Below are positions 12,798 to 60,298 of a DNA stretch of 64,000 bases, one piece after another. The stretch covers positions 806,001-870,000 of the forward strand of contig CAKKNE010000001.1 of assembly GCA_918797485.1 (NCBI GenBank), read 5' to 3'. This DNA is from Pelagomonas calceolata (taxonomy: Eukaryota; Sar; Pelagophyceae; Pelagomonadales; Pelagomonadaceae). The stretch's first letter is position 1; every line of letters begins with the position of its first letter. A model generated the notes under the pieces. It had not been told where the DNA came from. It made no database searches and worked only from the letters and a program-made list of their open reading frames with translations. A program made the translations under genes and the position numbers.

Positions 12798-14461
12798 ATG
12801 CAGCTCCTTCTGCTGTGGGTAGCGGTGCACGCCGCCGCGGCGCTCGTGCACACGACTACTCTGCCCCACAAGACGCGCCTACTCGCGACCACGACGCTCG
12901 TCGACCGCGCGCTGGACACGCTCGAGGACGCGACGCTCCATCTCACGCGCCTGTCGGAAGGCGATGCCCAGGACGTCGGCCCGCGAAATGATGACGACGA
13001 CCGCGCGACGCTCGTCGTCCTCGGCTCGGGCTGGGCCTCGCACGCGCTCATCAAGGTCGTCGACGCGAACAAGTACCGCGTCGTCGTCGTGAGCCCGCGG
13101 AACCACTTCGTCTTTACGCCGATGTTGGCCTCGGCCGCCGTCGGTACCGTGGAGTACAGGTCGATGACGGAGAGCGTGCGAGGGGCAAATCCCCTCGTGC
13201 AGTTCGTCGAGGGCGCGGCCACGGGCGTGAATCTTGACCAAAGGTACGTGATGGTGCAGCCGGTCCCGTTGGGTGGGGACGCGCCGGCGCCGCAACGCAT
13301 CAGCTACGACGCCCTTGTGGTAGCCGTCGGCTCGCGAGCGGCCGACGCGAACGTGCCCGGGGCGCGGGAGCGCTGCTTTGCGCTGAAGGATTGCGAGGAC
13401 GCGCGACGGCTGCGGGAGGCAGTAGGTGAGCGCTTCGAGCGGGCCGCGCGGGCGGGCGATGCGGCGACGGCCCGCGAGCTCACGTTCGCGGTCGTGGGCG
13501 GCGGCGCTACCGGTGTGGAATTGGCCGGAGAACTCAGTGACTTTGTCAACGACGTGGGGCGGCTCTACCCGTCGCTGCCGCAAGAAGCGCCGCGCGTCGT
13601 CTTGGTGCATAGCGGCGACGAGCTCCTGCCGCAGTTCGACCCGGATTTGCGCATTGAGGCGCTCCGGGCCTTGGAGCGGCGTGGTGTCCTCGTGCGGTTG
13701 GGGCGGCGCGTCCAGCGCGTCGACGAGGAAGCGTTACGGCTCGACGACGGCTCGGACGTGCCGTGTGCGCTGTGCGCGTGGTACGTTTCTGAGTCCGAAA
13801 CGACCCATACGCCATCGCAGCGACGCGTCGACACGCAGGTGCGCCGGCACGGCACCTGTGCCCTTCACCGAATCGCTCCCGGTGCCTGTCGGGGACGACG
13901 GTCGACCCTTTGTCGACGGTTGGTTGCGGGTGGCGGGATCCCCGCCAGGCACTGTCTACGGTCTGGGCGACGCATTCTGCTGTATACCCAACGGCGAGAG
14001 CGAGCCCGTTCCGCAGACCGCCCAGGTCGCGGGCCGTGCGGAATCAAATTTCAGGCGCCCCACGACGCGATGTTGTCTCCATTTCCACACAGGTCGCCGG
14101 CCAGCAGGGTGCGTACGTCGCTCGTCTGCTCAATCGCGGCTACGACTGCGTCCGAACGCCGCCTCGGCTACCAGCCGAGACTCGGACGCCGGTCGCCAAC
14201 TGGCTCCGGTTGCGGGGCGCGGAGGAGGCGTCGGAGTTTTCGTTTCTGAACCTAGGGCTCCTCGCGTACGTCGGAGGTGGAGAAGCCTTGTCCCAGGTCC
14301 AGGTCGGAGACGCCCGAGTCGGCGCGTGGGCGGGCTCCGCGGCCTTCCTGTTGTGGAGGTCCGTCTACATTGTGAAGCAGGTCGCGACGCGGAACCGCGT
14401 GCTCGTCACGTTCGACTGGGTCAAGACGGCCCTTTTCGGTCGGGATATCACTCGGCTTTGA
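12798..14461 (+). CDS. Type II (alternative) NADH:quinone oxidoreductase, three exons
   Basis: Exons are 12798-13780, 13839-14025 and 14093-14461 (512 residues). NDH-2 enzymes oxidise NAD(P)H and reduce quinone without pumping protons. A hydrophobic leader is followed by the FAD-binding fold (LVVLGSGWASHALI), a second Rossmann motif for NAD(P)H (FAVVGGGATGVELAGEL) and the conserved GLGDA segment. The C-terminal block FLNLGLLAYVGGGEALSQVQ continues through a membrane-anchoring helix to FGRDITRL. Splicing both introns is needed to join CALCAW to CAGTAPVPF and VPQTAQ to VAGQQGAYVA, each a continuous family motif. The leader suggests plastid or mitochondrial inner-membrane targeting. It converges with the ankyrin gene at 43 bp. 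Confidence 0.94.
13781..13838 (+). mobile_element. Introner-like intron 1 of the NDH-2 gene (58 nt)
   Basis: GT donor at 13781, AG acceptor at 13837-13838 (CGACACGCAG). The 8-mers at the two boundaries, GTACGTTT and GTGCGCCG, match at only 4 of 8 positions, so this is probably an old copy. It contains the core ACGCCATCG. Confidence 0.8.
14026..14092 (+). mobile_element. Introner-like intron 2 of the NDH-2 gene (67 nt)
   Basis: Target duplications GTCGCGGG (14026) and GTCGCCGG (14093) match 7 of 8. The inserted part begins CCGTGCGGAATC and ends CATTTCCACACAG, an imperfect inverted pair. The GT donor is the start of the first duplication and the AG is the end of the element. Confidence 0.9.
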
Positions 14462-14504
14462 TGATATGTGTAAGATCTTTTTGTACGACTACATGCACAC
14501 AGAG

Positions 14505-15689
14505 TTACAAAGCAACGGCCTCCGACCGCGTCCGCGCCGCGACCGCGATGCGTGCGTCGATGACCCGCCGCGTGCACGCGTCGAGGATGTCGTGGACGGC
14601 CTCGAGCTGCGACGGGCTCAGGTCCTCCGACGGCAGGAGCAGGTGCTCGGCCCGCAGCGCCAGCGCCGGCGCCGCGGGGAAGAGCGCCGCGAAGAGCTCG
14701 TTGACGTCGCGCGGCGGCGGCGGCGGTGACGGTTCCGGTAGCGGCGCGGGCTCGGGCGCAGCAGCCCCGCGCCGGCGCACGACGGTGGACCACGGTGTGG
14801 TGTCGTCAGCGAGCGACGCCGCGCGAGCTCGTGCTGTAAGTGCCGGGAGCTCGTGCTGGTGGAAGTGGCGAGCCCGATCCACCGCCGCCGCCATTTCGCC
14901 AGACGCCGCGCCCGACGTCTCCGAGCCCGAGCCCGAGTCCGACGAAGGCGCCACCACCGGCGAGGCGGCCCGCGGCGCCGGCTTGCGACGCCGTCCCTTC
15001 TTCTTCGGCGCGGGCGCCTGGGTTTCGGGCTCGGCGCAGAGCGCCTCGGCGACCGCCGCGGCCGCGGCTTCCTTCTTGCGCATGAAATCCTCGAGGACGC
15101 CCCGCGCCCGCGCGTCCTTTGGTAACCGGTCGCCCGGCGTCTTTCCCTTTGAATCGCGCGCGAAGGGGTCCGCGCCGTTGTCGAGCAGCACGTGGACGCA
15201 CCGCTCCCAGCCGTCCATGGGTCTCTCACTCTCGGCGAGCGTCGCGCATTTGCCGCACGCGTAGTGGAGCGCCGTGCTGCCGTCTGACGTAGGAGAATTT
15301 ACGTCGGAGCCGTTGCGCACGAGCGCCGAGACGGCCAGAGCATTGCCGCCGACGGCCGCGAAGTGGAGCGGCGTCTGCTTTTGCGCGTTGACGGCCTTGA
15401 CGGCGGATTTGTCGAGGTCGAGGATCACGTGCAATATGTCGTGGCCGCCCATCGCAGCGAGATGCGCCGGCGACGCGCCCGATGCGGTCTTGCACCGATA
15501 GATCGCGCCGGCGTCGACGGCCGTTCTTAATCCTTCGATCCAGCCCGTTTCCGCGCACCGCAGCACCGCGAGCGAGCCGAGCTCGCGCGTGTCATCTTTG
15601 CTGACCGCGTCGCGCAGCGCTGCTTCATCTTTCGCTCGCACGGCGTCGTCCACTCGCTTTGCGTCAGCCTCGGAGGCTGCGCTGGGCAT
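14505..15689 (-). CDS. Ankyrin-repeat protein with disordered C-terminal half
   Basis: A 394-residue protein with an ATG start. Ankyrin repeats occupy about residues 35-185; diagnostic units include GASPAHLAAMGGHDILHVIL, QTPLHFAAVGGNALAVSALV and GSTALHYACGK. After a basic Lys/Arg-Pro stretch (PKKKGRRRKPAPR) comes a low-complexity Ser/Pro/Ala region, then a helical C-terminus (FAALFPAAPALALRAEHLLLP). Ankyrin repeats mediate protein contacts and the partner is unknown. No signal peptide; the basic stretch may direct it to the nucleus. Long frames on the opposite strand are GC-rich shadows. Confidence 0.85.
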   Translation of the reverse strand: MPSAASEADAKRVDDAVRAKDEAALRDAVSKDDTRELGSLAVLRCAETGWIEGLRTAVDAGAIYRCKTASGASPAHLAAMGGHDILHVILDLDKSAVKAVNAQKQTPLHFAAVGGNALAVSALVRNGSDVNSPTSDGSTALHYACGKCATLAESERPMDGWERCVHVLLDNGADPFARDSKGKTPGDRLPKDARARGVLEDFMRKKEAAAAAVAEALCAEPETQAPAPKKKGRRRKPAPRAASPVVAPSSDSGSGSETSGAASGEMAAAVDRARHFHQHELPALTARARAASLADDTTPWSTVVRRRGAAAPEPAPLPEPSPPPPPRDVNELFAALFPAAPALALRAEHLLLPSEDLSPSQLEAVHDILDACTRRVIDARIAVAARTRSEAVAL

Positions 15690-16010
15690 TTTGCAGGAAG
15701 GCAGTCAGCGCCGCGGCGATGGTCTCGTGCAGTAGTAGTCTCTGTGATACCTGCCGCCTCGTGTCCGCGTCCGCCAGGCGGCGTGCAAGCTCACAGCCAG
15801 CCTTTGTGCAGGTGGTGCAGCGGCGTACAGAGCCAGCGGCGGGACGCACTGGTCACAGCGCGTTAGGTAGCGAGCGTTGAGGTCCCGTGCGAGTCCTGCG
15901 CCGCTCGGGGGATCTCTACGGCGCACACTAAGCCTACAATTGGTCATTTGACCTTGTGCACTGCGGCAAACCTAGCGCTTGCAAACGCGCTCAAACGCGC
16001 AGCATTGATC
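15690..16010. promoter_or_regulatory. Divergent promoter between ankyrin and phosphatase genes
   Basis: A 321-bp interval without a gene. No copy of the recurring palindrome is visible. Upstream in-frame starts at TTG codons are not accepted as initiation sites. Confidence 0.35.
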
Positions 16011-16822
16011 ATGCCGCGCAGCAGTCGCTTGCTTCTGACTCTGAAAACCGCCGCCGCGCTGCTCCCGAGACGTACGCAGCGCCGCACGCTGTTTTACGGA
16101 TGGGGAGGCTTCCAAGGGGAAGGAGCATCCGCACTGGCCGACGCCGTCAAGGCGACGGACGTACGCGTCGCATACTTGCGACACGGAAACACTGAACCCA
16201 ACGAAGTCGATTTTGACCGAACGCTGACAAAGCAGGGCCGGTGGCAGGCGGTCGCCGCGGCGAAGTCGTATGGATTGTCATTGCGGCCGTTCCTGCCCAC
16301 GGCGTTGAGCAGCGAAGCGCCTCGAGCAGTCGAGACGGCCCAAATCTTCCTGGAGGACGCCGGTCGCGACGTCGAACTCGTCACGGACCGGAGCCTCTAC
16401 GACGGCACCATGCAACCGGAGGGGTCCGCGGTCTTCCGGGAGATCGGCTACGCGCCGCTTGATTTTTATTTGAAGGACGGGCGGGCCAACGCGGTCCTGG
16501 GCGACTACGCCGAAAACGCGGCGGCGCGCGTCGCGGCGACGCTGGCGGGCTTCGGCCAATGCTCTCGTAGGCGGACGCTGGTCGTCGTCGGCCACGTGCT
16601 GGCTCGGTGTCGACGTCATGTGGGGTCGCCTCGATGGCGTCGAGGTCACCGGTTCCGTCCACACAGGCCATCTACCTCCCGGCCGCGGCCCTCTTCGCGG
16701 CGGAGGCGCTGGGCTGCGATCAGAAGGGCCGCTCCCAGATTTTAGGATGCGACACCCAAGAAGCGGAAGGATACTTGGTCGAGCCCGACGGCTCCGTGTC
16801 GCTGTTGCGGCGGCCGCGATAG
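16011..16822 (+). CDS. Histidine phosphatase (phosphoglycerate mutase-like), organelle-targeted
   Basis: Exons 16011-16595 and 16667-16822 (246 residues). The basic, Ser/Leu-rich N-terminus (MPRSSRLLLTLKTAAALLPRRTQRRTL) fits a mitochondrial or plastid presequence. The catalytic RHG motif is AYLRHGNTEPN, followed by SSEAPRAVETAQIF and a second-histidine motif (VVVGH) immediately before the intron. Splicing gives VVGH-AIYLPAAALF, as in the family. The branch (mutase, SixA or other phosphatase) cannot be assigned. I chose the first ATG; the frame extends upstream only from TTG. A second introner-like intron follows the stop codon directly. Confidence 0.87.
16596..16666 (+). mobile_element. Introner-like intron of the histidine phosphatase gene (71 nt)
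   Basis: GT donor at 16596, AG acceptor at 16665-16666. The inserted part holds CGGTGTCGACG near its 5' end and CGTCCACACAG at its 3' end, plus the internal core CTCGATGGCGT. A target duplication is no longer recognisable. Confidence 0.85.
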
Positions 16823-16887
16823 GTTTTACTTTGACGGCCGCGCCGCACGTCGCCGCGACGCCATCTATGGCGTGGAGGTTTCTATAG
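16823..16887 (+). mobile_element. Introner-like insertion in the 3' UTR, directly after the stop codon (65 nt)
   Basis: The stop codon TAG ends at 16822 and a GT follows at once. The 8-mers GTTTTACT (16823) and GTTTTAAT (16888) match 7 of 8. The segment ends in AG (16886-16887) and contains GTCGCCGCGACGCCATC and TATGGCGTGGAGG. It has the same architecture as the coding introns but lies in untranslated sequence. Confidence 0.65.
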
Positions 16888-16925
16888 GTTTTAATTATTG
16901 TGCTTAGAAGTGTCGACACCCCTTG

Positions 16926-18729
16926 CTATAAAGGCCCAACCGTGCTGTTCGCGTACTCGAAGAAGCACTCGTAGTCCAGGAGCACCTGCTCCCGGTACTC
17001 CTTGGCCACGCGCGCGACGGAGTCGGCCCACGTCATGCGCGCGTACGACGTCCCTAAAGCGGCGTCGATCACTTCCTTGAAGTGCGCCGGCGCCTTGCCC
17101 ACCGACGCGCGCACATGAGACGTGGCCGTCGCCGCCGCGATCTGTTCCACGTACTCGGCGAAGTCTTGATAGGTATCTAATTCATCTAAGTCGAAGGACG
17201 CCTTGTACGGCGACCGCTCCCTCACGACGAAATCTCGCTCGTCGATCTTGGCCCAGCCCGCGTAGGGGTCCGTGAGTGACGTAATGGCTCTCTGGGCTTT
17301 GACCGCTCTAGCAGCTTGATTTTTGAAGAGGTGGTCAAACCAGGCCGCATCACCAGTCTTACCAGACGTCGCCTCGAAGGCGTCCCGGGCCGCTGGGCTC
17401 GGTTCTTCCTTCACATCCAAGATGACCGCTCGTCTCGAGTGCTTATCTTCCTCCGCAGCTCTATCGTCACTCGGCACATCATACGCATCGTCGTCGGCCG
17501 CCGCCGGGCGCTCCTCGCCCGCTAAGAGGACGTAGAATCGGTCCACGCCGAAGGAGCCGATGCCCGACCCGACTCTTCTTGCTACATCTAAAACTTTGAA
17601 TGAAGCAGGACTGTATTCAAGAGCGTGCCACGCGACCTTGGGCAGCGTCGCCGGGTAGCCCTCCTTCGCGAAGCCTTCTCGGATTTTAGTTTCGATGTCC
17701 TCGGGAAGTTCTTCCAGAGACGTATCTTTCGACTTGACGAATTTCAATCCACTGGAAGTTCTTTCAGTAAATTTGATGACGGCCTTGTCCTCGTCTTTTT
17801 CTTGCATCTTCTTCAGGAATTTATGCAACGCGGTATCTTTCGGCGTCGTACTCGCCTTCACTTCAAACAATTCAGCATCCTCGTTGCCCACGTAGCCCTT
17901 GACGACCTCGACGTACGCTTCGCAGAAGGTCTCCACCGCACTCTCGGCCTTCGCTTCCGTGAGGCCGTTGGTCAGGGCGTGGTTGTAGATGGAAACGGCC
18001 ACCCTCCAGACGTCGACCTGGAAGTCGTAGATGACCTGCGCGGCGTTGGTGTTTCGAGGCGCTCTCGGTGACGCCATCGACGCGGTCCGAATCGGCCCAA
18101 AATCGAAGAAGAGACCAACCACTTCATTGTGAGATGGACACGAGTCGCGTCGATGGCGTAATAAGACACGGGACACATACCGCCTCGTCAAAATCGTTCA
18201 TCCCGTAGACCACGTCCCCATCCCTAGCATGAAACGCTCCGAAGTTCGACAGGTGCTGGTCGCCGGTCACCCAGGTCCAGGTCGACGTCCTTTGTAAAGG
18301 CGAGCCGTCCTTCAGAGGGTCCGCCAATCGCAACAGGTCAAACTCGCCCCACCCGCCATTGACAAAGTCGTGCCAGAACAAGTCCGCGGTCGCTCGATAA
18401 AACGAATTCGCGTCCTTGCCCTGGGCCTTGTACTTCGTGTGGAGGTCGTCCTTTGATAATTTGCTGTCTTTGTCTGCGTAATGATTTGAGATCCAATCAC
18501 ACCGTTTCTTCGCCTCCGGGGCGGCCCAGGTGTCTCCCGTCAACACATCCTTCTGCAAGGCTTCGGCGGCTTTGGGGTCCTCGATCGCGCCTCGGAGGGC
18601 GTCGGGCACGTTGAACGCGAGAGCGGCCACGAGCATGAGCGCGCCGGCTCCCGTTATGGCGAGGAGCGCCTTGCGGCGGCGGCTCGGCGTGCTGCCGTCT
18701 ATCGTTGAATAGGCTTGCTGGCGGGGCAT
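16926..18729 (-). CDS. DUF2252-family protein with N-terminal membrane anchor
   Basis: Exons 18729-18181 and 18035-16926 (552 residues). Starting at the first true ATG (upstream frame is open only from GTG), a short cytosolic segment precedes one transmembrane helix (LLAITGAGALMLVAALAF, about residues 21-39). DUF2252 signatures are present: FYRATADLFWHDF, then GDQHLSNFGAF and NDFDEA. The family has a protein-kinase-like fold but no established reaction. Splicing joins NDFDEA to VIYDFQVDVWRVAVS, where the family continues. The remaining ~370 residues are helical and charged. It converges on the histidine phosphatase. Confidence 0.85.
18036..18180 (-). mobile_element. Introner-like intron of the DUF2252 gene (145 nt)
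   Basis: GT donor (complement of 18179-18180), AG acceptor (complement of 18036-18037). A perfect internal inverted repeat of 14 nt (ACGCCATCGACGCG and CGCGTCGATGGCGT) lies near the two ends. The 5' part reads CCCGTGTC. No target duplication is recognisable. Confidence 0.8.
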
Positions 18730-19012
18730 GTTTTGACTGGATTCGCTCGAAAGCGCTCGAAAGCGCTGCAACAGATTTGGATGGCTTTGGCAGAGCTTGT
18801 TTTGAAAGCTCGGTGTAGCGACCGCTGCGCGACTGCTGGATCTGCTGGACCCTCGAGTGGTTCGAAAGAGACCGCGGCGTCCGAGATCGAAGCTCAGGCA
18901 GCGCACGATGGCAGCTAAGCGTGCAAATCCGCGCGCGCCCGCGTGCTCTAGAGCTTTTATGCGCTAGCTGAGTTCATATACTTACTACGGAGGGATAATG
19001 TGGAAGGCGCAT

Positions 19013-19465
19013 CTAGCACATCATGTCCCACTCGTAGAGCGCGAAGAACGCGTCGTTCCAGGGCCACTTGGCTTCAAGCATGTCCCCACCGGGCCCGTAA
19101 TACGACATCACCACATTGTCGCTGGGAGCATCATATCTAAAGATGCGCTCGCCCCGATGATCCCAGTTCACGTGCTCGGGGTCCGCCGACTCGAGCCAGT
19201 TCAGCAGTCTCGCCCGTACCGTCTCGCCGACGTCGCACTCCTCCTCGCCGACGCAGACGCTCTTGAGCTCCGGTAACGAGCAGCTGAAAGCGTCTCCATC
19301 GGACGGGCGGTTGATCCCCAAACTATCAAACGCCTCCGTGGCCATGTCGGCGTCGGCGACGGCGGCCGTGGCTCGCCGCGGCGGCGGCGCGTACTTGCGG
19401 CCGTTTCGCGGGCGCGCTTGGGCGATGGCGTTTACGCCGCTTCGTGACAGGTGCCAGTCGGACAT
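19013..19465 (-). CDS. Hypothetical 150-residue protein
   Basis: ATG at 19465. The N-terminal ~40 residues are basic and Ala/Pro-rich, perhaps a targeting peptide or disorder. The C-terminal part is acidic and Trp/Tyr-rich (LLNWLESADPEHVNWDHRGERIF, then DNVVMSYYGPGGDMLEAKWPWNDAFFALYEW). No family is recognised, but the composition is that of a folded domain and unlike a GC-rich shadow frame. It lies 283 bp upstream of the DUF2252 start, same strand, and is divergent from the kinase-phosphatase gene. Confidence 0.6.
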   Translation of the reverse strand: MSDWHLSRSGVNAIAQARPRNGRKYAPPPRRATAAVADADMATEAFDSLGINRPSDGDAFSCSLPELKSVCVGEEECDVGETVRARLLNWLESADPEHVNWDHRGERIFRYDAPSDNVVMSYYGPGGDMLEAKWPWNDAFFALYEWDMMC

Positions 19466-20003: not shown

Positions 20004-22074
20004 ATGCAACCACCAAATGAAAAACAGATCCCAGCAGCCGCCTTCACAGAAACAAAACGCCTCGCCGAGAACGCCCGCAACGTCGTATCACTCGGACACA
20101 TAAATGACAAGGTGGTCGTCCTCAAACGAGTGAGAGCAGCAACGGCGAATCCCGACCGCTGCCCGGCGTCGCGCCGCTTCGACGCGGAGCGGCGCTACGC
20201 GTGGGCGCTCTCGGAGGACTCGGACTTTGTCTTGCGACCCATCTACACCATCGTGGAGGCGCCGGTGATGGCCATGGTCATGCCCTACTGCGTCCACGGG
20301 TCCCTCGACCTCCTCTGCCGCCGCCCGCTGTCCTACGTGTTTTCCCTGCTACTGATGACAGACGCAGCGAAAGGCGTCGCCCACGCGCACGCGCTAGGTG
20401 TCGTACTGCGAGACGTCAAGCCGGGCAACTGCCTCGTGGGCGCCGACGGCGTCGCGCGGCTCGCGGACTTCGAGCTTGTGCGGCACCAGTGCCGAAATCA
20501 CGACATCGATGGCATGGAGGCTGACGATCACTCACCGGTCGACGTCCGCACAGGCCGGCACGCCGGACGAGTTGCGGAGACCGGCGCCGCGCTACGGCGG
20601 CGGGCCCGCCGGGAAGCCGCGAAAAACTTTTGAAGGCACGCCGGAATACGTCGCGCCCGAACTCCTGGAGGCCTACGACGCGGCGCCGGCGCGCAATTCA
20701 TCGGCTGATCCGATGCGGGCGGCCGCGACCTTCGCGTCGGACGTCTACTCTCTGGCGGTGCTGGCGAACGAGGTCGCGTCTGGAAAAGCGCCGTACGAGG
20801 GCGCCGAGCGGCCGGACGCGCAACTGCAGACGGTTATAGAGACGACCTATACGACGCCCGCGCTCTGCCGCGCCGTCGTCGCGGGCCGGCGGCCCGACCT
20901 GGCCGACCCGTGTGGCCGATCCGTGTTCCCGCAGCTAGTTGAAAGCGCTTGGGCCGCCGACGCGGCCGCGCGGCCGACGGCCAGGAGCTTCGCGGAGAGC
21001 CTCGTCGACTTGGGCGAGGCGCACTACGGTAACTGCTTAGGCGAGGAGATCCACTTCCTGAAGGGGGCCTTCGAGCCGACGTGGCGCCGGAAACACCTCG
21101 ACGTGCTCTTCCTCGTACCAGAACGCCTAGGCCACGAACTGCCGCCGCCGCCGCCGCCACCACTACCCGAGCTCTCAGCCGCGCAGATCGCCCGCCTCGA
21201 CGCCCTCGGCCGCGCGCGGTCCGGCGGTCCGCGCCGCCGCGGCCACGGTGTGGAACTCGCGCCGGGCCCCCGGGAAAGCATGGAAGACACCGCAGCGGCG
21301 GCGGAGTGGGGCGCGTCGGCGTGCTATGTTGTTGTCGACGGCCACGGCGGCGCCGAGGCGGCCGAGGTCGTCGTGGACCTGCTCCCGCGATTGATCGGCG
21401 CGGAGCTGCTCGCTGGCGGGACGGACGACGCCGCGGTGCGCGCCGCGCTACATAGAGCCTTTCTCCGCGGCGACGAGGCGTGCCGCCCGGCCAAAGGCGG
21501 CGCGTGCGTTGTTGTGGCGCTGCTTCTAGGCGACGATTTGTTTGTGTCATCTGCTGGAGACTGCCGCGCGATCCTCGATAGAGACGGCGACGAGACCTGG
21601 ACGTGGTCCCGTGCCTGCCCGGCGTCGCCCGATGCGGCGCAAGGCCCGTTCGCCGGCGGCGTCGTCGCGCTCTCGCGGGACCACCGCCCGTCGGATGCGG
21701 CTGAAGCAGTTTGCGTGACCGCCGTCGGTGGCCGCGTGTTTACGCTACCTGGCGAAGCAGAACCGCGCGTCGCTCATCGGAGCGGAAAAGGCGGCGTTCG
21801 CATAACGCGGGCGCTCGGTGACGCTGACTACCCGGGCGTGATCCCCGATCCACACATCGTGGGCCCGGTCCGCCTGTTGGGCCGCGACGCGACGCTCACG
21901 CTCGTCACTGACGGCGTCTCGGACCGGCTCTCCGACGACGCCGTCGCCCAGATCCTCCGCGATACGTGTCCAGAACCGCACCTGGGGCCGAAGGCGCTGC
22001 TTGTTGCAGCCTTGGACGCCGGCGCCGATGATAACGTGTGCGCGCTCGTCGTCTACTTGAACCGCCATCCCTGA
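20004..22074 (+). CDS. Protein kinase fused to a PP2C-type phosphatase
   Basis: Exons 20004-20477 and 20554-22074 (664 residues). Kinase domain (about 20-315): Lys41 in VVVLKRV, catalytic loop LRDVKPGN (136-142; Asp137 present, the usual His replaced by Leu), DFE instead of DFG at 155-157, and GTPEYVAPE at 186-194. No clear glycine-rich loop is seen. A proline linker (about 355-363) leads to a PP2C domain (about 385-664) with RESMED, VVDGHGG, the SRDHRPSD block, TDGVSD and DDNVCAL, so all metal-binding Asp positions look intact. One chain may thus phosphorylate and dephosphorylate. The intron falls exactly after the DFE motif. It converges with the DUF579-like gene at 59 bp. Confidence 0.92.
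20478..20553 (+). mobile_element. Introner-like intron of the kinase-PP2C gene (76 nt)
   Basis: GT donor at 20478, AG acceptor at 20552-20553 (GTCCGCACAG). The inserted part starts CCAGTGCCGAAATC. Target duplication is weak: TGCGGCAC and GCCGGCAC match 6 of 8 when shifted by one base. Core ATCGATGGCATGGAG is present. Confidence 0.82.
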
Positions 22075-22115
22075 GGACTGTTCTGTTTGTCTAAATTCTC
22101 TTGTTACACCACACC

Positions 22116-22131
22116 ACGCCATCGCCGCGAC
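22116..22131. repeat. Introner-core 16-mer outside an intron, copy 1
   Basis: ACGCCATCGCCGCGAC, in the 59-bp gap between two convergent stop codons. It differs by one or two bases from the ACGCCATCGACGCGA core inside introns. Confidence 0.6.
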
Positions 22132-25856: not shown

Positions 25857-26877
25857 TTACCCCGTCTTAACGCACCGCGTCCGCGTGCACGCGGCGGAGC
25901 ACTGTTCCAGGAGCGTGCCCGCCGAGCATTTCTCAAGATCGTCCGAGATGCATAGCGGCTCGAGGTACCGCCCGACCCGCCCGTACCAGTCCGTCGCGCG
26001 TTTCTTCAACCGCGCGGTCACGAAGACCGAGTCGAGGGCGACGCAGAAGACGCGCGCGAAGCCGCGCGCCTCGAGAAAAGCAGTGAGCTCGGCCGAGGCC
26101 GTCTCGACCGTGAGCACGTCGATTGTGGTTGTGTTCCAGTCAACCTGTGTGGAAATCAACCCCATCGAGCCGACGCAGCCCCAGGAGCAACGTGTAGACG
26201 AGCTCCGATTTGATTTCCACACCGCACCCGACGCCCCTCAGCGCGTCGAGCTCGCCGCCCTCGACGTCGAGCGACAGGTACGTGATCGCGCGCATTTTAT
26301 GGTGCGCGAGCAGCGTCGAGAGGGGCTCGCATGTTAATTTCAAGGTCTTCTTGGCCCCGCCCGAGGACGCGATGCGCCCCTTGCCGCCGGCCAGCGCGAA
26401 CTCGACCTCGCGCGTCTCGGCCGTGACGCAGGTTTTGGCAAGCGCGCAGCGGCGGTAGGCCCCGAAGCCGGGGTGATACTTGGGATTTGGCTCGACGCAG
26501 AGGCCGTGCCATCCTAACAACTGTTCCAAGGCGTACGTGTTCGAGTTGCGGATCGCGTCGTTCGCCGCCAGATCGACGAAGGTCCCACGGACTGCCGTCG
26601 TGGTCGCGTTCAGCAGCGAGGCGACGACGCGGTCCTGGCCGAACTGGCCGCACCACTTTTGTTGGACGACGGTTCCTATATTCCGCGCCATCTCATCCTT
26701 GGTAACCGCGGGGTGGAAGCGCCCGCAGTGGTCCTTTTCGTTGTACCGGAAGTGCGTCGCGGGCTGCCCCTGCTTGTGCGGTTCTATTAAATATATCAGT
26801 AAGAGCAAAGCGGCGGCGGCGAGGACCGGTGCGGCGCGCAGGGGCTGCCTGCCATTAGTTAGTGGTTCGTGCCGCAT
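25857..26877 (-). CDS. FkbM-family methyltransferase, membrane-anchored
   Basis: Exons 26877-26233 and 26144-25857 (310 residues). The N-terminus has one signal-anchor helix (APVLAAAALLLLIYLI). The methyltransferase domain shows FVDLAANDAIRNSNT, LGWHGLCVEPNPKYH and YLSLDVEGGELDALRG, the family motifs in order. Splicing gives LRG-VDWNTTTIDVLTVE, the usual continuation. Type II topology suggests Golgi-lumen sugar O-methylation (inference). Cysteines near the C-terminus may form disulphides. It shares a family with the 11705 gene but differs in anchor, so it is a paralogue and not a tandem copy. Confidence 0.9.
26145..26232 (-). mobile_element. Introner-like intron of the second FkbM gene (88 nt)
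   Basis: On the minus strand the boundary 8-mers are GTCGGGTG and GTTGACTG (5 of 8). The element begins CGGTGTGGAAATC and ends GATTTCCACACAG, an almost perfect 13-nt terminal inverted repeat, with internal CTCGATGGGGTT. Confidence 0.92.
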
Positions 26878-41278: not shown

Positions 41279-42470
41279 TCATGTGTTGTTAAAGGATACC
41301 TCAAACACCACAGGCTGGTGGTCGCTCAGGTAGCCGTCCGTCGCGAAGACGCCGCCGCCCGCGAAGGCCGCGCCGGGCGAGCAGAACGCGTGGTCGATCG
41401 TGCGGTCCGGCGCCGGCGACGTCCAGGGCTTGTAGGTCGCGCGGCGTGTTGATGCGTCCCGCCTGTGTATTTTTAGGCTATTTTTTGTTGTTGTGGCGCT
41501 CTCGTGTGGCGTCTCGGCGGAGCCCCCCAGACGCCGTCGACGCGAAACGCCATCGACGCGAAGGTAAATAAATGTAGAAACCAAATGTCGTGGCCGCGAC
41601 GCCTGCTCGATGGCGTGATTTCCACACCGCATCCCGCCAGAGCGGCACAATATTAGGATCAACATACAGCGGCGCCGCGGGCGTGTTCGATTCGGGGTAG
41701 AGCGCGGCCTCGTCCTTGGCGAGAGTCGAAGCGTCCTCGTACGGCGTCAGAGAGTTGAGGTCACCCGCTAGCAAGAACTCCTTCCCCTCTACCAATTCGC
41801 GCAGCCTCGAAATCTGCCGTTCGACCGTCCCGTCTCCATACGAAAACGCTGAGAGATGGGTGTTGAAGAGCGTCGGGCCATTGACTAGTGGCGTCTCGAG
41901 GACGCACCTCCTAAGATTAAACAGCTGGCGCACGCGCGACTCCCGTAGCAGGGGCAGCTGGTGCCGTGTCGCATCTTGCAATTGATATTTCGACAAGGTA
42001 CACAAGTGCATGCCGATGCGGCCGACGTGTTCATTTTTAGGGTGTGGGACATAGGGCACCCGCCAGTACGCCGCCGACGCCGCGCAGGGAAAGTCGAGGC
42101 GTTCTCGCAATAGTTTGAACTCATCAATCTTGTGCGTCCGTCGGCTTCGCCGGTCGACCTCCTGGAGGAGCACGACGTCGGGATCGATGGTGGCGATGGC
42201 GTCGCCGATTTTTTTAATGCCTTGTTCCACTTCGGGTCTCGGCGCGCTGACGGCGTCGCCGCCGTCGTAAAAGTAGTGCTGCCGGATGCCGGCGCCGTAC
42301 TGGACGTTCCAGACGCAGACTCTTAAGGGTTTTGTCCCGTCGTACGTCGGCGCCGTTGCATCGTTCCAGAGGCCCGCCGGTCTCGTTTTTTTGAAATGCT
42401 GGATGGTGCGGCGCAGCGGGCGCAGGCCGCTTGTGATGGCTATGCTTGCTGCGAGGAGGGTAATGCGCAT
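41279..42470 (-). CDS. Endonuclease/exonuclease/phosphatase-family protein, secretory
   Basis: Exons 42470-41638 and 41462-41279 (338 residues with a GC-AG intron). A signal peptide-like start (MRITLLAASIAITSG) leads into the EEP fold. Motifs: RVCVWNVQYGAG, DVVLLQEVDRRSR (metal-binding Glu), LLAGDLNSL (catalytic Asp/Asn), and in exon 2 RTIDHAFCSPG and YLSDHQPVVFEV (catalytic DH). With the precise splice the junction reads PLWRDASTRRATYKPW. Members cleave nucleic acids, phosphoinositides or sphingomyelin; the substrate is not evident. Confidence 0.88.
41463..41637 (-). mobile_element. Introner-like intron of the EEP gene, likely GC-AG (175 nt)
   Basis: Target duplications GCGGGATG and GCGGGACG match 7 of 8. 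The element begins CGGTGTGGAAATC and ends AATACACAG. Excising exactly from the first duplication uses a GC donor and restores the frame. A GT donor 12 nt further in also keeps frame but leaves a 4-residue RDAV duplication. Internal inverted copies of ACGCCATCGA are present. Confidence 0.85.
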
Positions 42471-51341: not shown

Positions 51342-51436
51342 GTGCTTCGATGAATGGTAAATGTAAAAAGTGACTTGGTGATGGCAAGCGTGATCGGAGC
51401 CTCTAAAAAGTAGCTCGGAGCTAAAATGCAGAGCCT

Positions 51437-51460
51437 GCTAGTGTCTTACAGGCCGCTAGC
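51437..51460 (+). repeat. Promoter palindrome
   Basis: Left arm GCTAGTGTCTTAC, right arm GGCCGCTAGC: matches the consensus exactly. 96 bp upstream of the 51341 start. Confidence 0.88.
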
Positions 51461-51591
51461 CTTCTCAATCCGGACGCCTCGCCGCGCGGCGGCTCGACAC
51501 GCGCCCCTAGGCTTGGTGGTTCAGGTAGTGAACGCCTCGGCGGGCACGAATCGCTCGACACCTCGCCCGCTCAGATCTATGCTACTAGTAA

Positions 51592-53256: not shown

Positions 53257-53643
53257 GCCTGGCCGCGCGGGCAGCCCCCGGCCGGCGCAAGTGTGTCGCA
53301 GAAATGGCTGTTGGGCTGCTCGACGGCGTGCGAGGGCTGCAGGAAAAGCTTTGCGCAGCTCATCGAAACCAAGGGTTCGGGTTCGGGTTTTGTGTGTTCC
53401 AGCCCTCCTCCCACGGAGCAGGACGTCTGCCGGCGCGCAACCTTGGATGGCTCTTTGCATAAATCGTGGCCCACCGAGGCGCGACGCTCTCCTTGGAGGC
53501 AGGGAGAGCTGCCATTTTAAAGTGCTATAACTCTCACGCGGAGATCGCATCGATGGACAGCGATTTCTGATTATATAGTAGCACACGCGGCCGCCGCAAA
53601 TCCGTGAGTTGCAGCCGCCTAGACGAGGTCTGGCTGCGACAAA
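53257..53643. promoter_or_regulatory. Divergent promoter between the transporter and the hydroxylase genes
   Basis: 387 bp without a supportable gene. No copy of the palindrome is recognised. Confidence 0.35.
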
Positions 53644-54780
53644 ATGCCGCGCAAGCGCAAGCAACCGCGCGACGGCGGCGCCTGGCGCAAGTATGCGCTG
53701 CTCGCAGCATTGGTCGCAGCGCTGTGGGCGCGCACGCCGTCGGCGCCGGCCCGGCGCTTGGAACGGCAGCTCCAAACGGGCCGCGCTCTCTTCGAGGCGG
53801 GCAATTGGAGGGATGCAGTGGCGGCGCTCGATTTGAGGAAGCAAGCGGCCGCTCTGAGGACTGACGCCGAGCGGCGCCTGTTCTGGCCGCGATTGCATGA
53901 GGCGGCGGCGCACCGCGCGCAGAGCGCGCTGCGGGCCGCTGATCTAGCAGACACAGCTGCCGCGCGACGCCGAGGCGTCGAGCAGGCCGTGAGCCTCTTC
54001 GAGGCCGCGCTGGCGATGGACGAAAACGCGTACGCGTTCCTCGACTTCGTCTACGACGCGTGCCGCGCCTACTGGCGGTTAGAGAGGGTCGAGGCGGCGG
54101 ACGCCTTGTTTGAAGCGGCGCGGTCGAAGTCCGACGCGTTCCCCTGGACCACGCCGCGGCAGATGCCGTGCTGCGGCGCGCTCGCGCGGCTGCCCGTCGC
54201 AAATGAAAGACCGTGGCACGCAGTCGACGCGTACGACCTCACTCGCATACTCCGAGACCACACGCACGACATTCGACGCGAGTTCATGAATGCGAACCTC
54301 GACCGTTTAGTGAGCGCGTCCCCGGAGGGCCACGGCGCCGAGTTTACCAGAGACGCGACGGGTCGTAAACCGTGGCGCGAGCTCGTCTTGTACGACGGCG
54401 AAAATGAAGGCTGGGACGCGGAAACCTGTGAAGCGTTCCCGAAGACGTGTTCGCTACTGCGCGACGCGCCGTCCTTAATAACGGTGCCGGCAGCGGCGCC
54501 AAAACCGCGCTACTGTTGTCGGGTGAGCGTGCTGCGGCTCGCGCCCGGCGCGCGCGTCAACGTCCACACCGCTCCGACGAACGTGCGTCTGAAGGCCCAC
54601 CTGGTCCTCTCTACACCACCGGGAGCCTTCTTATCGGTGGCGGGCGAGCGTCGGAACTACTCCGAGGACGAGGTGCTGGTCTTCGACGACTCCTTCTTCC
54701 ACGCGGCCGAGAACGGGCATGAAACTGAGGCGCGGTATGTGCTTTCTGTGGACTTTTGGAAGCCCGGGCTGCTGTTGTAA
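53644..54780 (+). CDS. Aspartyl/asparaginyl beta-hydroxylase, type II membrane protein
   Basis: 378 residues. A basic start and signal anchor (YALLAALVAALWARTPSAPA) put the catalytic domain in the ER lumen. A TPR-like helical region follows. The hydroxylase core has VNVHTAPTNVRLKAHLVLSTPPGAFLSVAGE, EDEVLVFDDSFFHAAENG: two iron-binding His and the 2-oxoglutarate-binding Arg lie within these blocks as in human ASPH. Enzymes of this family hydroxylate Asp/Asn in EGF-like domains. Confidence 0.93.
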   Translation: MPRKRKQPRDGGAWRKYALLAALVAALWARTPSAPARRLERQLQTGRALFEAGNWRDAVAALDLRKQAAALRTDAERRLFWPRLHEAAAHRAQSALRAADLADTAAARRRGVEQAVSLFEAALAMDENAYAFLDFVYDACRAYWRLERVEAADALFEAARSKSDAFPWTTPRQMPCCGALARLPVANERPWHAVDAYDLTRILRDHTHDIRREFMNANLDRLVSASPEGHGAEFTRDATGRKPWRELVLYDGENEGWDAETCEAFPKTCSLLRDAPSLITVPAAAPKPRYCCRVSVLRLAPGARVNVHTAPTNVRLKAHLVLSTPPGAFLSVAGERRNYSEDEVLVFDDSFFHAAENGHETEARYVLSVDFWKPGLLL

Positions 54781-54846
54781 GTGTTTTTTGTGACTCTTTT
54801 GTGTTTCGGCGGCGTTTTCTGTGGGGTCTGGACACGTCTCCGAAAT

Positions 54847-54869
54847 CTAGTATGTAACCTCACGCTAGC
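54847..54869 (+). repeat. Promoter palindrome, divergent copy
   Basis: CTAGTATGTAAC and CACGCTAGC arms; 194 bp upstream of the TENA-like start, in a 282-bp interval. Confidence 0.65.
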
Positions 54870-55062
54870 CCCGTTTGCGTGCTTTTGCTTTTGAGCCCCG
54901 AGCAAGCCGTGCAAGAGTTGTCGCTGTGACTTGAGCACTGCCAAGCGCACACTGCCACCACGCGGAGCCAGCGAGTGCGAAACCTGCCAGCCACCGGGTG
55001 CAGCCTCGCTGCAGCAGCACACCTCGCTGCACACGTGCCACAGGCTATAACGCCCGCTAACC

Positions 55063-56052
55063 ATGCGCACCCGGCACGCTTTCGCCGCCGCGCTCGCCGC
55101 CCTGGCCTCCGCCGAGCTCATCGACGACAACGGCGTGCAGTGGGGCGTGACGCGCGCGTACGCCGAGGCGAAAGCAAAAGACTGCCTCGCGTCCCTCAGG
55201 GCGACGGCGTGGCACGCGCAGACGGAAAGAGCTCTCAAAAACCACCCCTTCGTCAAGGCGGCGGAGCGCGGCCGGTTGCCGTTGCAAGCCTTGCAGCGTT
55301 TTGTGGGAGAGCAGCGTTTCATCCAAGCGAACGATGCCGCTTCCTTCGCGCAGCTCGCGGGGTCCGACTGGCGGCCCACGGCGGCCGGTCTGCTAGATCT
55401 GTGGCGGAATACGCCACCGGATAATTTGAAGGGGCTCTTCGGCACTTTATTAAAGGGCGAGCTCGCCGCCGCGCCGCTCCTGCAGCGACTAATCCACGCG
55501 ACGGGTTTAGATTATGACGCCCACGGCCGGTCGGAAGACGGGACGTTCTTCGCGCCGGAACCGCGCGCGCAGGCTTATGGGGCGTACTGGGCCTTGTTGG
55601 CGCCCGTGTGGAAATCACCCTGCTCGATGGCGTGGAGTTTCCACGCCGTCGACGCGACGTTTGTAACCTAACTCACCGGTCGATTTCCACGCAGGCTGGC
55701 GCGGGACGGCAAGCGCGCGGCCGCCGCGGCCGCGGCGGCCGTGAACTTCCCGGCCTGGGGCGACGCGTGCCGGCGCGTGCTCCACGGGCTGCGCAAGGAC
55801 GAACACATGAAAAACGAACTCAAGAAGCGCGGCCTCGCGGAGTACCAGGAGGGCCTCGCGTTTCTGGCCTTCTTCGCGGAGCCGCTCCCAAACCTCGAGG
55901 ACATGGCGCTTTCTATATTAGCGGACGACTTCGAGAAGAACGGCGCCTGCGAGCTGATCCAGGACGACGTCCGGACGCTGCAGGCCTACGAGGTCGACTT
56001 CTGGGACGCCGTCTGGAAGCCGTCCCATCATGCGTCGCGCGGGGAGCTCTAA
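55063..56052 (+). CDS. TENA/THI-4-like (haem-oxygenase-fold) protein with signal peptide
   Basis: Exons 55063-55595 and 55695-56052 (296 residues). A short leader (MRTRHAFAAALAALASA) suggests secretion or plastid import. The TENA-like helical core reads AWHAQTERALKNHPFVKAAERGRLPLQALQRFVGEQRF. Splicing gives YWALL-ARDGKRAAAAA, then NFPAWGDACRRVL, with a terminal helix TLQAYEVDFWDAVW. TENA proteins hydrolyse thiamin breakdown products. The family match is good but the catalytic Cys was not identified, so activity is uncertain. Confidence 0.78.
55596..55694 (+). mobile_element. Introner-like intron of the TENA-like gene (99 nt)
   Basis: Target duplications GTTGGCGC and GCTGGCGC match 7 of 8. 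The element begins CCGTGTGGAAATC and ends GATTTCCACGCAG, with internal CTCGATGGCGTGGAG. GT comes from the first duplication, AG from the element. The spliced codon TTG CTG reads through. Confidence 0.93.
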
Positions 56053-56146
56053 AGAATCGTAATTTAATACGGGGGATTGATGATGGGCTTGTTGATGGAC
56101 GAGTCTGCGCCTACTCCCAGATGCCGACGCCCCAGTTCCTCTTGGC

Positions 56147-56947
56147 CTATCCGATAGGCCCAAAGGGGAAGAAGGGGAAGCAGCAACCATTGCCACCTCC
56201 AGAGTTGCCGAAGCGGAGGTTGCGGCGCAAGTTGCCCGGATCCTCCCCGAACCCGAGCGGCTCGAGCCCGTAGATGCACAAGATTGGGGGCCCCGGTGGG
56301 GGGGTGTCGTCGAGGCGCCGCCCTCCTGCCTCGGCTTGCTCGACTAGCTTGCGGTTGAATGGACTGATATTCCACTCTTCCGGGCCTAAGCCTTCGCAGT
56401 CCGCGGACGTGGAGCACTGGATATTCTCGGGGCAGTAGCCGTCGATGAACCATTGCGGGGCACCACCAACTGCTTCGAGGCGCCGCCCGCCCGACGGGAG
56501 GCTCGCCGGGCCCAGCAGCGTGCGCTTCGAGTCCGGATGGGCGTCGACGCGGTGCTCGTAGACCGAGTTGTCGTACGTGATGTGCGTGCCGGCCTCAATA
56601 GGAATGCGGTGCTCCGCGCCGCTCTTGGTGTCGACGAGGACGAAATCGGCCGGCGGGCCCGCGACCCCTAGGTAGTAAATGTCGACCTTGCCGGGAGCGT
56701 CGCTTCCGGCCTTGAACCTGTCCTGGTGCTGCTTGACCGGGCCTTGCGCCTGCTTGGCGGGCACTTCAGCGCCCTCCTCGCGACCGAATAACTTGGCCAC
56801 TGCGCCCGGCATCTTGATGACGCTCGCCGACGCCGCCTCGGCGGCCAGGCGCTGCGTGGTCGCCTCGTCGACGGCGTTCTTGGTGGCCTTGTGACGCGTC
56901 GACGCGTGCGCGCCGCCGTGCAGGGCGAGGAGGAGGAGGAGCTTCAT
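56147..56947 (-). CDS. Unknown secreted protein
   Basis: 266 residues from the first ATG. It has a signal peptide (MKLLLLLALHGGAHAS), an Ala/Lys-rich propeptide-like segment, then PADFVLVDTKSGAEHRIPIEAGTHITYDNSVYEHRVDAHP, a beta-type domain. The C-terminus is Gly/Pro/Phe-rich with two Cys (GGGNGCCFPFFPFGPIG). RRLEAVGG and RRLDDTP are possible cleavage sites. No family recognised. Confidence 0.65.
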   Translation of the reverse strand: MKLLLLLALHGGAHASTRHKATKNAVDEATTQRLAAEAASASVIKMPGAVAKLFGREEGAEVPAKQAQGPVKQHQDRFKAGSDAPGKVDIYYLGVAGPPADFVLVDTKSGAEHRIPIEAGTHITYDNSVYEHRVDAHPDSKRTLLGPASLPSGGRRLEAVGGAPQWFIDGYCPENIQCSTSADCEGLGPEEWNISPFNRKLVEQAEAGGRRLDDTPPPGPPILCIYGLEPLGFGEDPGNLRRNLRFGNSGGGNGCCFPFFPFGPIG

Positions 56948-57303
56948 CGTGATAGCCTGCGGCGCGCGCGGGGCGTGAAGGTTACATGACACAGTGAGAC
57001 CAGCAGTACGAGAGCGAGAAAAGCCGTGGCGACCCCGTTGCAAACCGACACGTCCAGGCGACGTTTGAATGTGAAAATGACGACGCCGCGGCCGCGCTTT
57101 TGCCCTGTTTCCCAAATCTGACTGAAGCTACCATGAGGCCGACCCGCAAAAATTAATTCAGCAACCGTCCATACACCGTTCAGCGCCCTATGTACGCGTA
57201 GCCAGTGGTACGGTCGTCGCCAGAGAGCGTTTAGAACAACTACTTACCCCGCGCGGCGACTCGACGGCACCGTCAGATCACCCGCGGCGAACCGACGGCT
57301 CCG
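56948..57303. other. Intergenic region, no gene seen
   Basis: 356 bp upstream of the secreted-protein gene and downstream of the DUF4239 gene. No palindrome or repeat is recognised. Confidence 0.35.
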
Positions 57304-58399
57304 TCAGATCACCCCGTACGCCAGCGCCGCCTCGCCCTCCGACTCCGACGAACCGGCCAGCAGCGCGTCCAACTCGTCCTCCAAGCCCTCGGTCATCGTC
57401 TCGAGGACCGCCGACACGGAGTAGGCGCCCGACGTCGGGTCCCAAATATCCCGGAGCACCCGCAAACACGCCACGAGCGCGAAGGTCAGGGCCCCGAACC
57501 CGTGCGCCTCGAAGACGACGGACACGCCCGGCGCGTAGCCCGCCACCGCCAAGACGAATGAAGCGAGGATGCCGCCCCCGAGCGTGTACAACAGTGCGAA
57601 CTGGACGCCGGGAAGCTTCCGCTGCAGGGCACCTAACCGTCGAGCTCGCGCCGCGCGCGCGTCCTTGACGGACTCGTAGACGTGCGTCGACGGCAGGCCC
57701 ACAGAAGACGCGTAGAGCAGCTCCTCGAGGGGATCCCGAAAAACGATTTGGGTCGTGTTGACCTGTGTGCATCTACGTTACGCCGCGACCCGATAAGTTA
57801 AGGACGCCGCTGCAAACGGGCGCGCCGATCGTGAGCCTCTTGGCGGGCCCGCGCCGCGGGTCGCCGACGTCCTGCTCGAGGTCGCCGACGTAGCGCCGGA
57901 AGGCCCGGAGGGCGCTGCGACACCGCGGCTCGCCCGGCCCGCCCAGGACCAGGACGAGCTGCTCCAGTAAAGAACGGGCACAGGACACCTCCGCATAGAC
58001 CGCGAGGTGCGCCGCCTCCTGCTGTTCATATAGAGCGGTGAAGGTGTTCGATGCGACCACCGAGAAGAGGAGACCTAGCACGCCGGGCACGGTCTTGGCT
58101 AGGTCGGAATTGCCTATTAACATGGCCGTCTTTCTCCCGAGCACGTTGTGCGTGAATTGAGCTAAAGGCGCGAAGGCTATATAAGCTACCGTGCTTATTA
58201 TGGTAGTTGGGAGAAATATCCGCTTGGCCGTCTTGGTCATGGCCGATGCGAGCGTGCCTTCGCGTCGTCGTCGCGGCTTCGACGCGGGCAGCCAGGGGAC
58301 GGTGACCATGTGGCGTTTCGTTCGTGTTATTGCTTTTGGTCGGATCGGCTGCCAGGCGCTTGTCGCGGCGATGGCGTAGAGCAGCGCTAGGCGACGCAT
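57304..58399 (-). CDS. DUF4239 (bestrophin-like) membrane protein, organelle-targeted
   Basis: Exons 58399-57818 and 57762-57304 (346 residues). The leader (MRRLALLYAIAATSAWQPIRP) plus Arg-rich segment suggests plastid import. The core has AYIAFAPLAQFTHNVLG, GVLGLLFSVVASNTFTALYEQQEA and, after splicing, IVFRDPLEELLYASS with two more helices (FALLYTLGGGILASFVLAVAGY). This family has bestrophin-like topology and no firm function. The leader codons coincide with an exact introner-core 16-mer at 58362-58377. Confidence 0.82.
57763..57817 (-). mobile_element. Introner-like intron of the DUF4239 gene (55 nt)
   Basis: Boundary 8-mers GTTTGCAG and GTCAACAC match 4 of 8. The element begins CGGCGTCC and ends GATGCACACAG. 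An alternative GT donor upstream (GTCGGCGA, after LEQD) is also in frame; the chosen one places the element start where the other introners begin. Confidence 0.7.
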
Positions 58400-58900
58400 G
58401 GTTGCTCTGCCTGCGCTGCACTGCCTGCAGCCTGCTCTGTATGTGTGCTCGCTGGCCTAATCGTTCGGCACACCGGCTGGGGTGGATGTGCAGGGCTGGA
58501 AATCGATCCCCAAGCGTCTGTGAGGTGCACAGCGCGGCTGCAATGGCTCCACAAAGTTGCCATTGCTTTGGGCACGGGTTTTTCGCCGAGTCGCGACAAG
58601 GACGCGAATCTGCACTTGCGACCCGTCGCGAACCGAGTTAGAGAGCGTCGAGAGCCATGCGTCATTTGCCGCTTTTGCCGCTTTTGCTAAATGTGCTAAA
58701 AAGTTGATGGCCAGAAGGAATTTTGACGCCTTTAAACAGCCGTACTACACGCCTGTGAACGCACAGCACTTGCGCAGAGCTCGCATTAGTACTCACTTGC
58801 AGCCTCGTCCAGACGCGGCAACCCATTGCGCGGTTGTCACAGAGTCTAGCCCTCAGCGCTAAGACACAGAAAAAGCTGTAAACTCCACGTAAACGCATAA
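58400..58900. promoter_or_regulatory. Divergent promoter region, no gene seen
   Basis: 501 bp between the DUF4239 start and the next gene. No supportable frame or palindrome. Confidence 0.35.
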
Positions 58901-59353
58901 ATGATGCGTTTCACCGCCTTAGCATGGCTGGCGACGGCCACCTACGCCCTCACGCCCAGCCGGAAGATCAAAGTCGCGCGCAAAAATACTTTGGATTCGA
59001 GTGTCACCTTCGACGAGTATTGTAACAGCGTATTAACAACCAGTTACGCCCTCGACGAGTCTTCATACAGGTACCAAAACATCATGGATCAATGTATTGT
59101 CAACTCCGACAGCGAGTCGGCCATTGAGGACTGCCTGAAGCTCACGAAGCAGTTCGAGATCGTCGACGTGCCGCCCCTGGACACGAAGATGGCGGCCAAC
59201 CGCGCCCAGGCGCAGCTCGAGACGCTCGCCTCCGAAAAGAACCCGCTCGCGGCCCCGATCCACCTCGAGTACTACGCCTTGCTCGCTTTGGTCGTCATCC
59301 TCTACGTGGACATCCTGGACGTGGCCGGGATCGTCGCGCGCTTCCAGCACTAG
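58901..59353 (+). CDS. Small membrane protein with plastid-type leader, unknown
   Basis: 150 residues. It begins MMRFTALAWLATATYALTPSRKIKVARK, a signal-like leader followed by a basic segment. A helical soluble part with three Cys follows (FDEYCNSVLTTSYALDESSYRYQNIMDQC). One C-terminal transmembrane helix (YYALLALVVILYVDILDVAGIVA) ends the protein. No family recognised; the sequence complexity supports a real gene. Confidence 0.7.
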   Translation: MMRFTALAWLATATYALTPSRKIKVARKNTLDSSVTFDEYCNSVLTTSYALDESSYRYQNIMDQCIVNSDSESAIEDCLKLTKQFEIVDVPPLDTKMAANRAQAQLETLASEKNPLAAPIHLEYYALLALVVILYVDILDVAGIVARFQH

Positions 59354-59421
59354 GCACAGTGCTTACAGAACTCCGCCGGTCCCGAAGGATCGCGCGCTAA
59401 ACCTATCTTGTGATTCTTCAT

Positions 59422-60298
59422 TCAACTGCCATTAAACACGGGGTCCCGCCCCTCGGCGAACGCTCTCAGCCCCTCCTGGTAGTCGCGCGAATCGAAGCAT
59501 TCCTGATACCTCGCATCCGCCATGAAGCGCCCGTCCTTGCCGCGGCGCCCGCGCATCATCGCTTTGGCGGCTCGTTGCACCAACGGCGCCAGCGAGGCGA
59601 TCTCCGCCGCGGCCGCCTCGGCCGCGGCGGCAGCGTCGCTCGCCGCAACCTGTGCATAAATCAAATTCTCGCGAACCGCTGTCGACGCGACATCTGCTCG
59701 ACGGCGTAGAGGGGTTGATTTATGCACCGGCTGCAACGACGCGGTGCACGAGGCCGAGCTGCTTCGCCTCGGACGCGTCGATCACGCGCGCGGTCAGGAT
59801 GAGTTCCGACGCGGCGCTCCTTCCGACGGTATCGACGAGCGGCTCCAATAAATGCCGCGGGTAGCCGAGCCCGAGTTTGGCCGGAGGCACGCAAAACGTG
59901 GCGTCATCCGCGGCCACGCGGACGTCGGCCATGAGCATCAAATTCAACGCCGAGCCGTAGCAGTTGCCCCGCACCAGCGCGACGAGCGGTATGTCCAAAT
60001 CCCTCAATGATTCGGCGGCCTTTATCTCGACGGCGTCCCACTCCTCGGCCTGGTAGCTGTCGGCGCGCAACGTGGCGAACTCCGAGATGTCGCTGCCCGC
60101 CGAAAAATGCGCGCCAGCACCCTCGAGGAGCGCCACCCGGCCGCTGTTCGCATCGGCCGCGATCCTCGGGAGCTGGCGGTACATGTCGAGCGTGAGCGCG
60201 TTGCGCTTTGCTGGGTGGTCAATAGCAATACGTCTTAGTGATCCCTCGGGCGTGACGCGGAATTGTCCAGCGCTGAAGCGGCGCACTGCGCGGTGCAT
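59422..60298 (-). CDS. Enoyl-CoA hydratase/isomerase, mitochondrial type
   Basis: Exons 60298-59738 and 59649-59422 (262 residues). The first ATG begins a mitochondrial-like presequence (MHRAVRRFSAG). The crotonase fold shows HPAKRNALTLDMY, GAGAHFSAGSDISEFA (oxyanion loop), LVRGNCYGSALNLMLMADVRVA and FCVPPAKLGLGYP. Splicing gives LVHRVVAASDAAAAA and then the C-terminal helices. The usual catalytic Glu of the CYGSALNL segment is replaced, so it may be an isomerase or related crotonase. Confidence 0.9.
59650..59737 (-). mobile_element. Introner-like intron of the enoyl-CoA hydratase gene (88 nt)
   Basis: Duplications GTTGCAGC and GTTGCGGC match 7 of 8. The element begins CGGTGCATAAATC and ends GATTTATGCACAG: both termini differ from the TGTGGAAATC family in matching fashion, so the pairing is kept. 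Internal TACGCCGTCGAGCAG. Confidence 0.93.

Follow-up and report, generated by a model that had tools for sequence, protein, structure and literature searches.

The genome of the small marine alga Pelagomonas calceolata very probably contains a family of introners, that is, of similar sequences which serve as introns at many unrelated positions. The family was studied in a stretch of 64,000 nucleotides (contig 1, positions 806001-870000; hereafter the window) and in the whole assembly (32,445,274 bases in eight contigs). Its members appear to be short, non-autonomous DNA transposons with inverted tips and an 8-bp target duplication. The duplicate would provide the 5' splice site, or donor, and the element the 3' splice site, or acceptor. 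This mechanism is already known; the family adds a further, well-documented case to it, and its rules are legible unusually cleanly in this alga.

In the sample described below, copies are 60-204 nt long, carry the tips CTGTGTGGAAATCAA...TTGATTTCCACACAG and lie between 8-bp target duplications. The core of the tip, GTGTGGAAATC, occurs 1933 times genome-wide (967 forward, 966 reverse), versus 6 times for a reversed-pattern control (6 and 0). A whole-genome search with the element tips, which an earlier sequence-only reading of the window had advised, thus gives counts far above chance. Within the window alone the excess is only mild: 16 tips are found with at most two mismatches, against a shuffle mean of 10.4, and 3 of 100 shuffles reach 16.

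Variant tips are also present. One form, CTGTGCATAAATC, occurs 67 times, versus none for its control. The variant tip GTGCATAAATC is seen in the window (59650-59729), at L018 and at L054-L060, sometimes by itself and sometimes paired with the common tip in a single copy. At L018 and L060, copies that carry both tip types have a perfect duplicate, which suggests that the two types may have moved together.

Donor, acceptor and reading frame were studied in a pool of 48 copies. These come from the window, from twenty 10-kb regions (18 on contig 1 picked for their exact tips, and two that surround open reading frames, ORFs, of hAT type) and from twenty 1.2-kb regions (exact tips, contig 1). A script found 47 of them, requiring at least 8 of 11 matches in both tips and at least 5 of 8 in the duplicate; the window copy at 41463 was entered by hand. 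Strand and frame of the flanks were taken from codon usage, trained on nine long window ORFs, and not from splice sites. Both flanks scored above 5 (coding-like) for 34 copies, and the other 14 were dropped. When the element and one duplicate are excised, strand and frame agree in 32 of the 34; for independent flanks, agreement is expected one time in six.

Read on the coding strand, all 32 joined copies have AG at the end of the element, and the upstream duplicate opens with GT in 22 and with GC in 10. The sequence-only reading had proposed that the 5' splice site comes from the duplication and the 3' splice site from the element. All 32 predicted introns, with strand assigned by codon usage, support this proposal. 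Its count of a single GC donor was too low for the family. A donor dinucleotide GY (GT or GC) together with AG at the far end is present in 47 of 48 copies when read from the first base of the duplicate (offset 0); for offsets 1 to 6 the counts are 5, 9, 13, 12, 11 and 23. The coding-strand counts and this offset control support an origin of one splice site in the element and co-option of the other from the duplicated target. Intron phase is 0 in 16 copies, 1 in 7 and 2 in 9.

Duplicates in the 32 copies match at 8 of 8 positions in 15 cases, 7 in 11, 6 in three and 5 in three. The family thus has the inverted tips and target-site duplications of a DNA-transposon introner of the miniature inverted-repeat transposable element type, with 26 of 32 duplicates matching at 7 or 8 positions. 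Across the window and the twenty 10-kb regions, 29 tip pairs have duplicates matching at 6 or more of 8 positions; one is a cross-pair of two neighbouring copies. Similar sequences are predicted as introns at many unrelated positions, namely the 32 coding-flanked copies of the sample and, in the window, six protein families.

Many copies share more than their tips. A 203-nt core is resembled by 17 of the 48, a class missed by the size range of 55-175 nt first given for these introns. With 8 bases added, the core gives an intron of 211 nt. This agrees with the intron-length peak near 210 bp which Guerin et al. 2022 (PMC9481584) give for P. calceolata and compare with Aureococcus introner elements. 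The further copies have diverged from the 203-nt consensus, the more mismatches their duplicates tend to have (Spearman 0.66, p 0.004, n 17), as expected of a decaying duplication, with one old copy (L080 220) weighing heavily in this small set. The coding set includes 11 core copies, 9 of them in one orientation relative to the gene and 2 in the opposite one; both orientations are used in coding genes, and an orientation bias is possible.

The tips also seem to record which splice site is under selection. If constraint acts on the acceptor AG alone, tips that have lost CTG must be donor-side tips, preceded at eight bases by GT or GC. Across the genome, 124 tips have the form CVGTGTGGAAATCAA (CVG, CTG being lost), and 112 of them have GT or GC eight bases upstream, which places them on the donor side; a few of the 124 are not independent because of duplicated chromosome arms. 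This may be the footprint of selection on the 3' AG. Among 95 typed CVG tips, the dinucleotide eight bases upstream is GT in 71 and GC in 24. GY also precedes 987 CTG tips by eight bases, a count without a total of such tips and hence without a rate. Within the 32 coding copies, the element starts with CTG in 24, CGG in four, CCG in two and CAG in two; a change at the second base is seen in 8 of their 32 tips on the donor side and in 0 of 32 on the acceptor side. The 5' tip "CSG", initially taken as a family feature, is thus a decayed form of CTG that is found almost only on the donor side.

Two other ideas about the tips were dropped. An ancestral, hAT-like CAG tip is not favoured by the second base of the 95 changed tips (C 47, G 36, A 12), which looks like decay from CTG. 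A branch point (TTGAT) within the tip is unsupported, as the 32 copies have 19 mismatches on the acceptor side versus 25 on the donor side and a clear difference only at the AG base.

Several points weigh against this account of the family. Most of the sample lies within the first 1.57 Mb of contig 1, exact tips guided its choice, and its 48 copies were preselected for duplicates of at least 5 of 8. Joining fails in two of the 34 coding cases, L028 9455 and the doubtful window candidate 20487, and 12 of the 124 CVG tips lack GY. Six further exact tips in the sample had no partner found there. Without the duplicate filter, three more tip pairs appear with at least 9 of 11 matches in both tips and duplicates of only 2 of 8 each (L021 5334-5476, L027 4010-4086 and L076 242-356). 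By eye, one tip of each of these three is still preceded by GY at eight bases, and the same strand has AG at the opposite end. Duplication is therefore usual, not universal. Element tips without target duplication, seen in these pairs and at window 16596-16666, may result from a different insertion route, from recombination between copies or from decay.

The donor rule could also arise if the transposase prefers targets beginning with GT or GC, so that target choice matters more than selection for splicing, while splicing itself is the same. Such a preference would account for the 15 of 16 copies outside the coding set that obey the rule, and for the frequent T at position 2 (71 of the 95 typed tips with GY). 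However, copies not scored as coding may lie in untranslated regions or in genes missed by the score. A symmetric preference should also give RC (R being A or G) at the other end of the duplicate, and RC closes it in 23 of the 95 typed tips and 10 of the 32 coding copies, not near 100%. Nor does target choice explain why AG is kept at one tip only. Overall it is an unlikely, though by no means negligible, explanation.

Could these be ordinary old introns whose end repeats reflect chance or splice-site consensus? The layout alone (G[T/C], 7 of 8, AG) has 39 matches in the window beside coding-like flanks, with tips in only three (41463, 55596, 59650), so it is not diagnostic; three window introns also lack a clear duplication. 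For tip-bearing copies, however, this reading is contradicted by the genome-wide tip counts (1933 versus 6), and it does not account for tips shared in many places, the 203-nt core in 17 of 48 copies or perfect duplicates in 15 of 32. It is extremely improbable for the family, although single decayed introns may be of this kind. Spread by reverse splicing of intron RNA, rather than as DNA, is nearly as improbable. Copies in genes do sit in the sense that splices, and three tip pairs lack a duplication, yet the copies bear inverted tips and 8-bp duplications, the typical marks of DNA transposition. Moreover, core copies occur in both orientations (9 and 2 of 11), unlike RNA copied in the spliced sense.

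The DNA-transposon account can be put as a series of steps. A transposase would insert the element, with duplication of 8 bp of target. The spliceosome would take its donor from the G[T/C] that opens the upstream duplicate and its acceptor from the AG of the element tip. Where the target does not begin with G[T/C], selection would mostly remove the insertion. After insertion, the AG tip would be constrained while the donor-side tip decays.

The inverted tip may, more tentatively, act as a two-way 3' splice-site cassette. Since both tips end in CAG when read outwards, the element would be a cleanly removable intron either way, and the gene would supply only the GT or GC that opens the 8-mer. 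One 211-nt intron folds with a 15-bp tip stem (-89.3 versus -76.2 kcal/mol for shuffles, z -3.1). Any element with inverted tips should form such a stem, and its help to splicing is conjecture. By bringing donor beside acceptor, tip pairing might compensate for weak donors and explain why about one third are GC.

In this one genome, the proposal that introns originate from DNA transposons translates into countable rules: the source of the donor, the base of the element that is selected once it is an intron, the frequency of GC donors and the use of both orientations. If strains differ in their copies, intron gain and its cost would be directly measurable.

Aureococcus introners, as reportedly described by Huff, Zilberman and Roy in 2016, duplicate 8 bp of their target and co-opt one splice site from it. 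In this pelagophyte, A. anophagefferens, introner elements have direct repeats and terminal inverted repeats around introns, according to PMC7789003. The Pelagomonas family shares the arrangement so described. Unlike the Aureococcus elements, for which the same text gives canonical splice motifs, it has GC donors in 10 of 32 copies. The introners of Symbiodinium microadriaticum (Gozashti et al. 2022, PMC9860276, Fig. 2B) are similar as well, with inverted tips, the 3' splice site in the element and the 5' splice site co-opted from the target duplication. They differ in having 4-bp rather than 8-bp duplications and an unrelated host. No description of the donor rule in Pelagomonas was found among the matches listed from the open-licence literature searched.

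No autonomous partner with matching tips was found among four transposase families and two hAT proteins searched. The 8-bp target duplication fits the hAT superfamily and is not exclusive to it. A search with PF05699 returned two hAT-type ORFs of over 700 aa, each a single copy by protein search and one below the Pfam curated cut-off. They lie in elements that look complete and intact in outline, at L011 4550-8200 (C4 near 4.50 Mb) and L012 4522-7390 (C5 near 1.22 Mb), each with a 13-14/14 tip match and an 8/8 duplicate. These elements resemble the introner in their 8-bp target duplications and short inverted tips, but differ in tip sequence (CAGGGCAGCAGAAG and CTAGGTTGCCATTA) and in having single-copy ORFs. 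Judged by their tips, neither is the partner. PF10551 (MULE) gave no genome match, while four control genomes gave matches. PF18758 (KDZ) and PF21787 (P-like) gave none either, but no control matched, so these two results are uninformative.

According to Guerin et al. 2022 (PMC9481584), the P. calceolata RCC100 assembly has six nuclear contigs (32.4 Mb), plus plastid and mitochondrial contigs, and contigs 1 and 5 share a 393-kb duplication at their ends. In line with this, C1 1-390 kb and C5 1-390 kb are near-identical; the offset between the two arms changes by some 130 bp from 104 to 261 kb. Four places with the pattern are found on both C1 and C5, at almost the same coordinates, up to 380 kb. 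No empty sites were found in these arms: all 14 of 14 C5 regions could be aligned to C1 (96.9-100%), and none has a gap the size of a copy. Spread via viruses was also considered. The exact 16-base tip occurs in 22 viral-contig stretches, with three second-tip pairs within 600 bases. Judged by eye, the flanks of these pairs agree at no more than 4 of 8 positions, and the pairs are taken as chance.

Within the window, the sequence-only reading had named five 7/8 pairs. Four of them (14026, 41637, 55596, 59737) have tips, duplicates, G[T/C], AG and a restored frame. The fifth, at 16823, was rejected: it comes directly after the stop that closes the histidine-phosphatase ORF, and its "element" has CTATAG at the end and no tips.

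The gene for type II NADH dehydrogenase contains a predicted introner intron at 14026..14092 (+), with GTCGCGGG / GTCGCCGG at 14026-14033 and 14093-14100 (7/8) and the element at 14034-14092. Excision restores the frame, and an alignment to yeast Ndi1 crosses the junction. This copy is outside the pooled 48, as its left tip matches at only 7 of 11 bases. Three further predicted introns have duplicates of 7/8. At 41463..41637 (-), in an endonuclease/exonuclease/phosphatase gene, the donor is GC, the duplicates are GCGGGATG / GCGGGACG and the acceptor-side tip, AATACACAG, is diverged; the junction at 328 falls within Exo_endo_phos (Pfam, 104-377). The intron at 55596..55694 (+), in a gene of the TENA/THI-4 family, has GTTGGCGC / GCTGGCGC, and TENA_THI-4 (Pfam, 60-289) spans its junction at 181. 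The enoyl-CoA hydratase gene has one at 59650..59737 (-) with the variant tip and GTTGCAGC / GTTGCGGC; its alignment to 4olq is gap-free through the junction.

A single layout had been assigned to all twelve introns, with coordinates for five. Three others have no clear duplication and do not follow it. The introner intron at 26145..26232 (-), in an FkbM-type methyltransferase gene, has GTCGGGTG / GTTGACTG at 5/8, and Methyltransf_21 (Pfam, residues 117-259) spans its junction at 230. A decayed, apparently older introner-like intron at 13781..13838 (+), in the same type II NADH dehydrogenase gene, has GTACGTTT / GTGCGCCG at 4/8 by eye. Its junction lifts the Ndi1 score to 176.9 bits, from 170.7 bits with an arbitrary in-frame cut. 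The histidine-phosphatase gene intron at 16596..16666 (+) ends in CACACAG and has no target duplication (2/8 by eye). A His_Phos_1 (Pfam) match ends at residue 219, two residues beyond its junction (the ORF being joined with a cut 3 nt shorter), which is slight support. A candidate at 20487-20553 was rejected: its tips are weak, the duplication is 6/8, the flank frames fail to join and the donor/acceptor rule fails.

Another repeated motif was noted. This short motif, CACGCCATCGAS, occurs 2887 times in the genome, versus 7 for the reversed pattern; places include window 18071, 18146, 22116, 23938, 27161 and 30184, L015 3267-3287 and L016 1632-1660. With at most one mismatch, CACGCCATCGA is found 69 times inside pooled introners and 65 times outside them in 288 kb, versus 0 and 9 for the reversed control. 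It is carried by 40 of the 48 pooled introners and is partly tandem.

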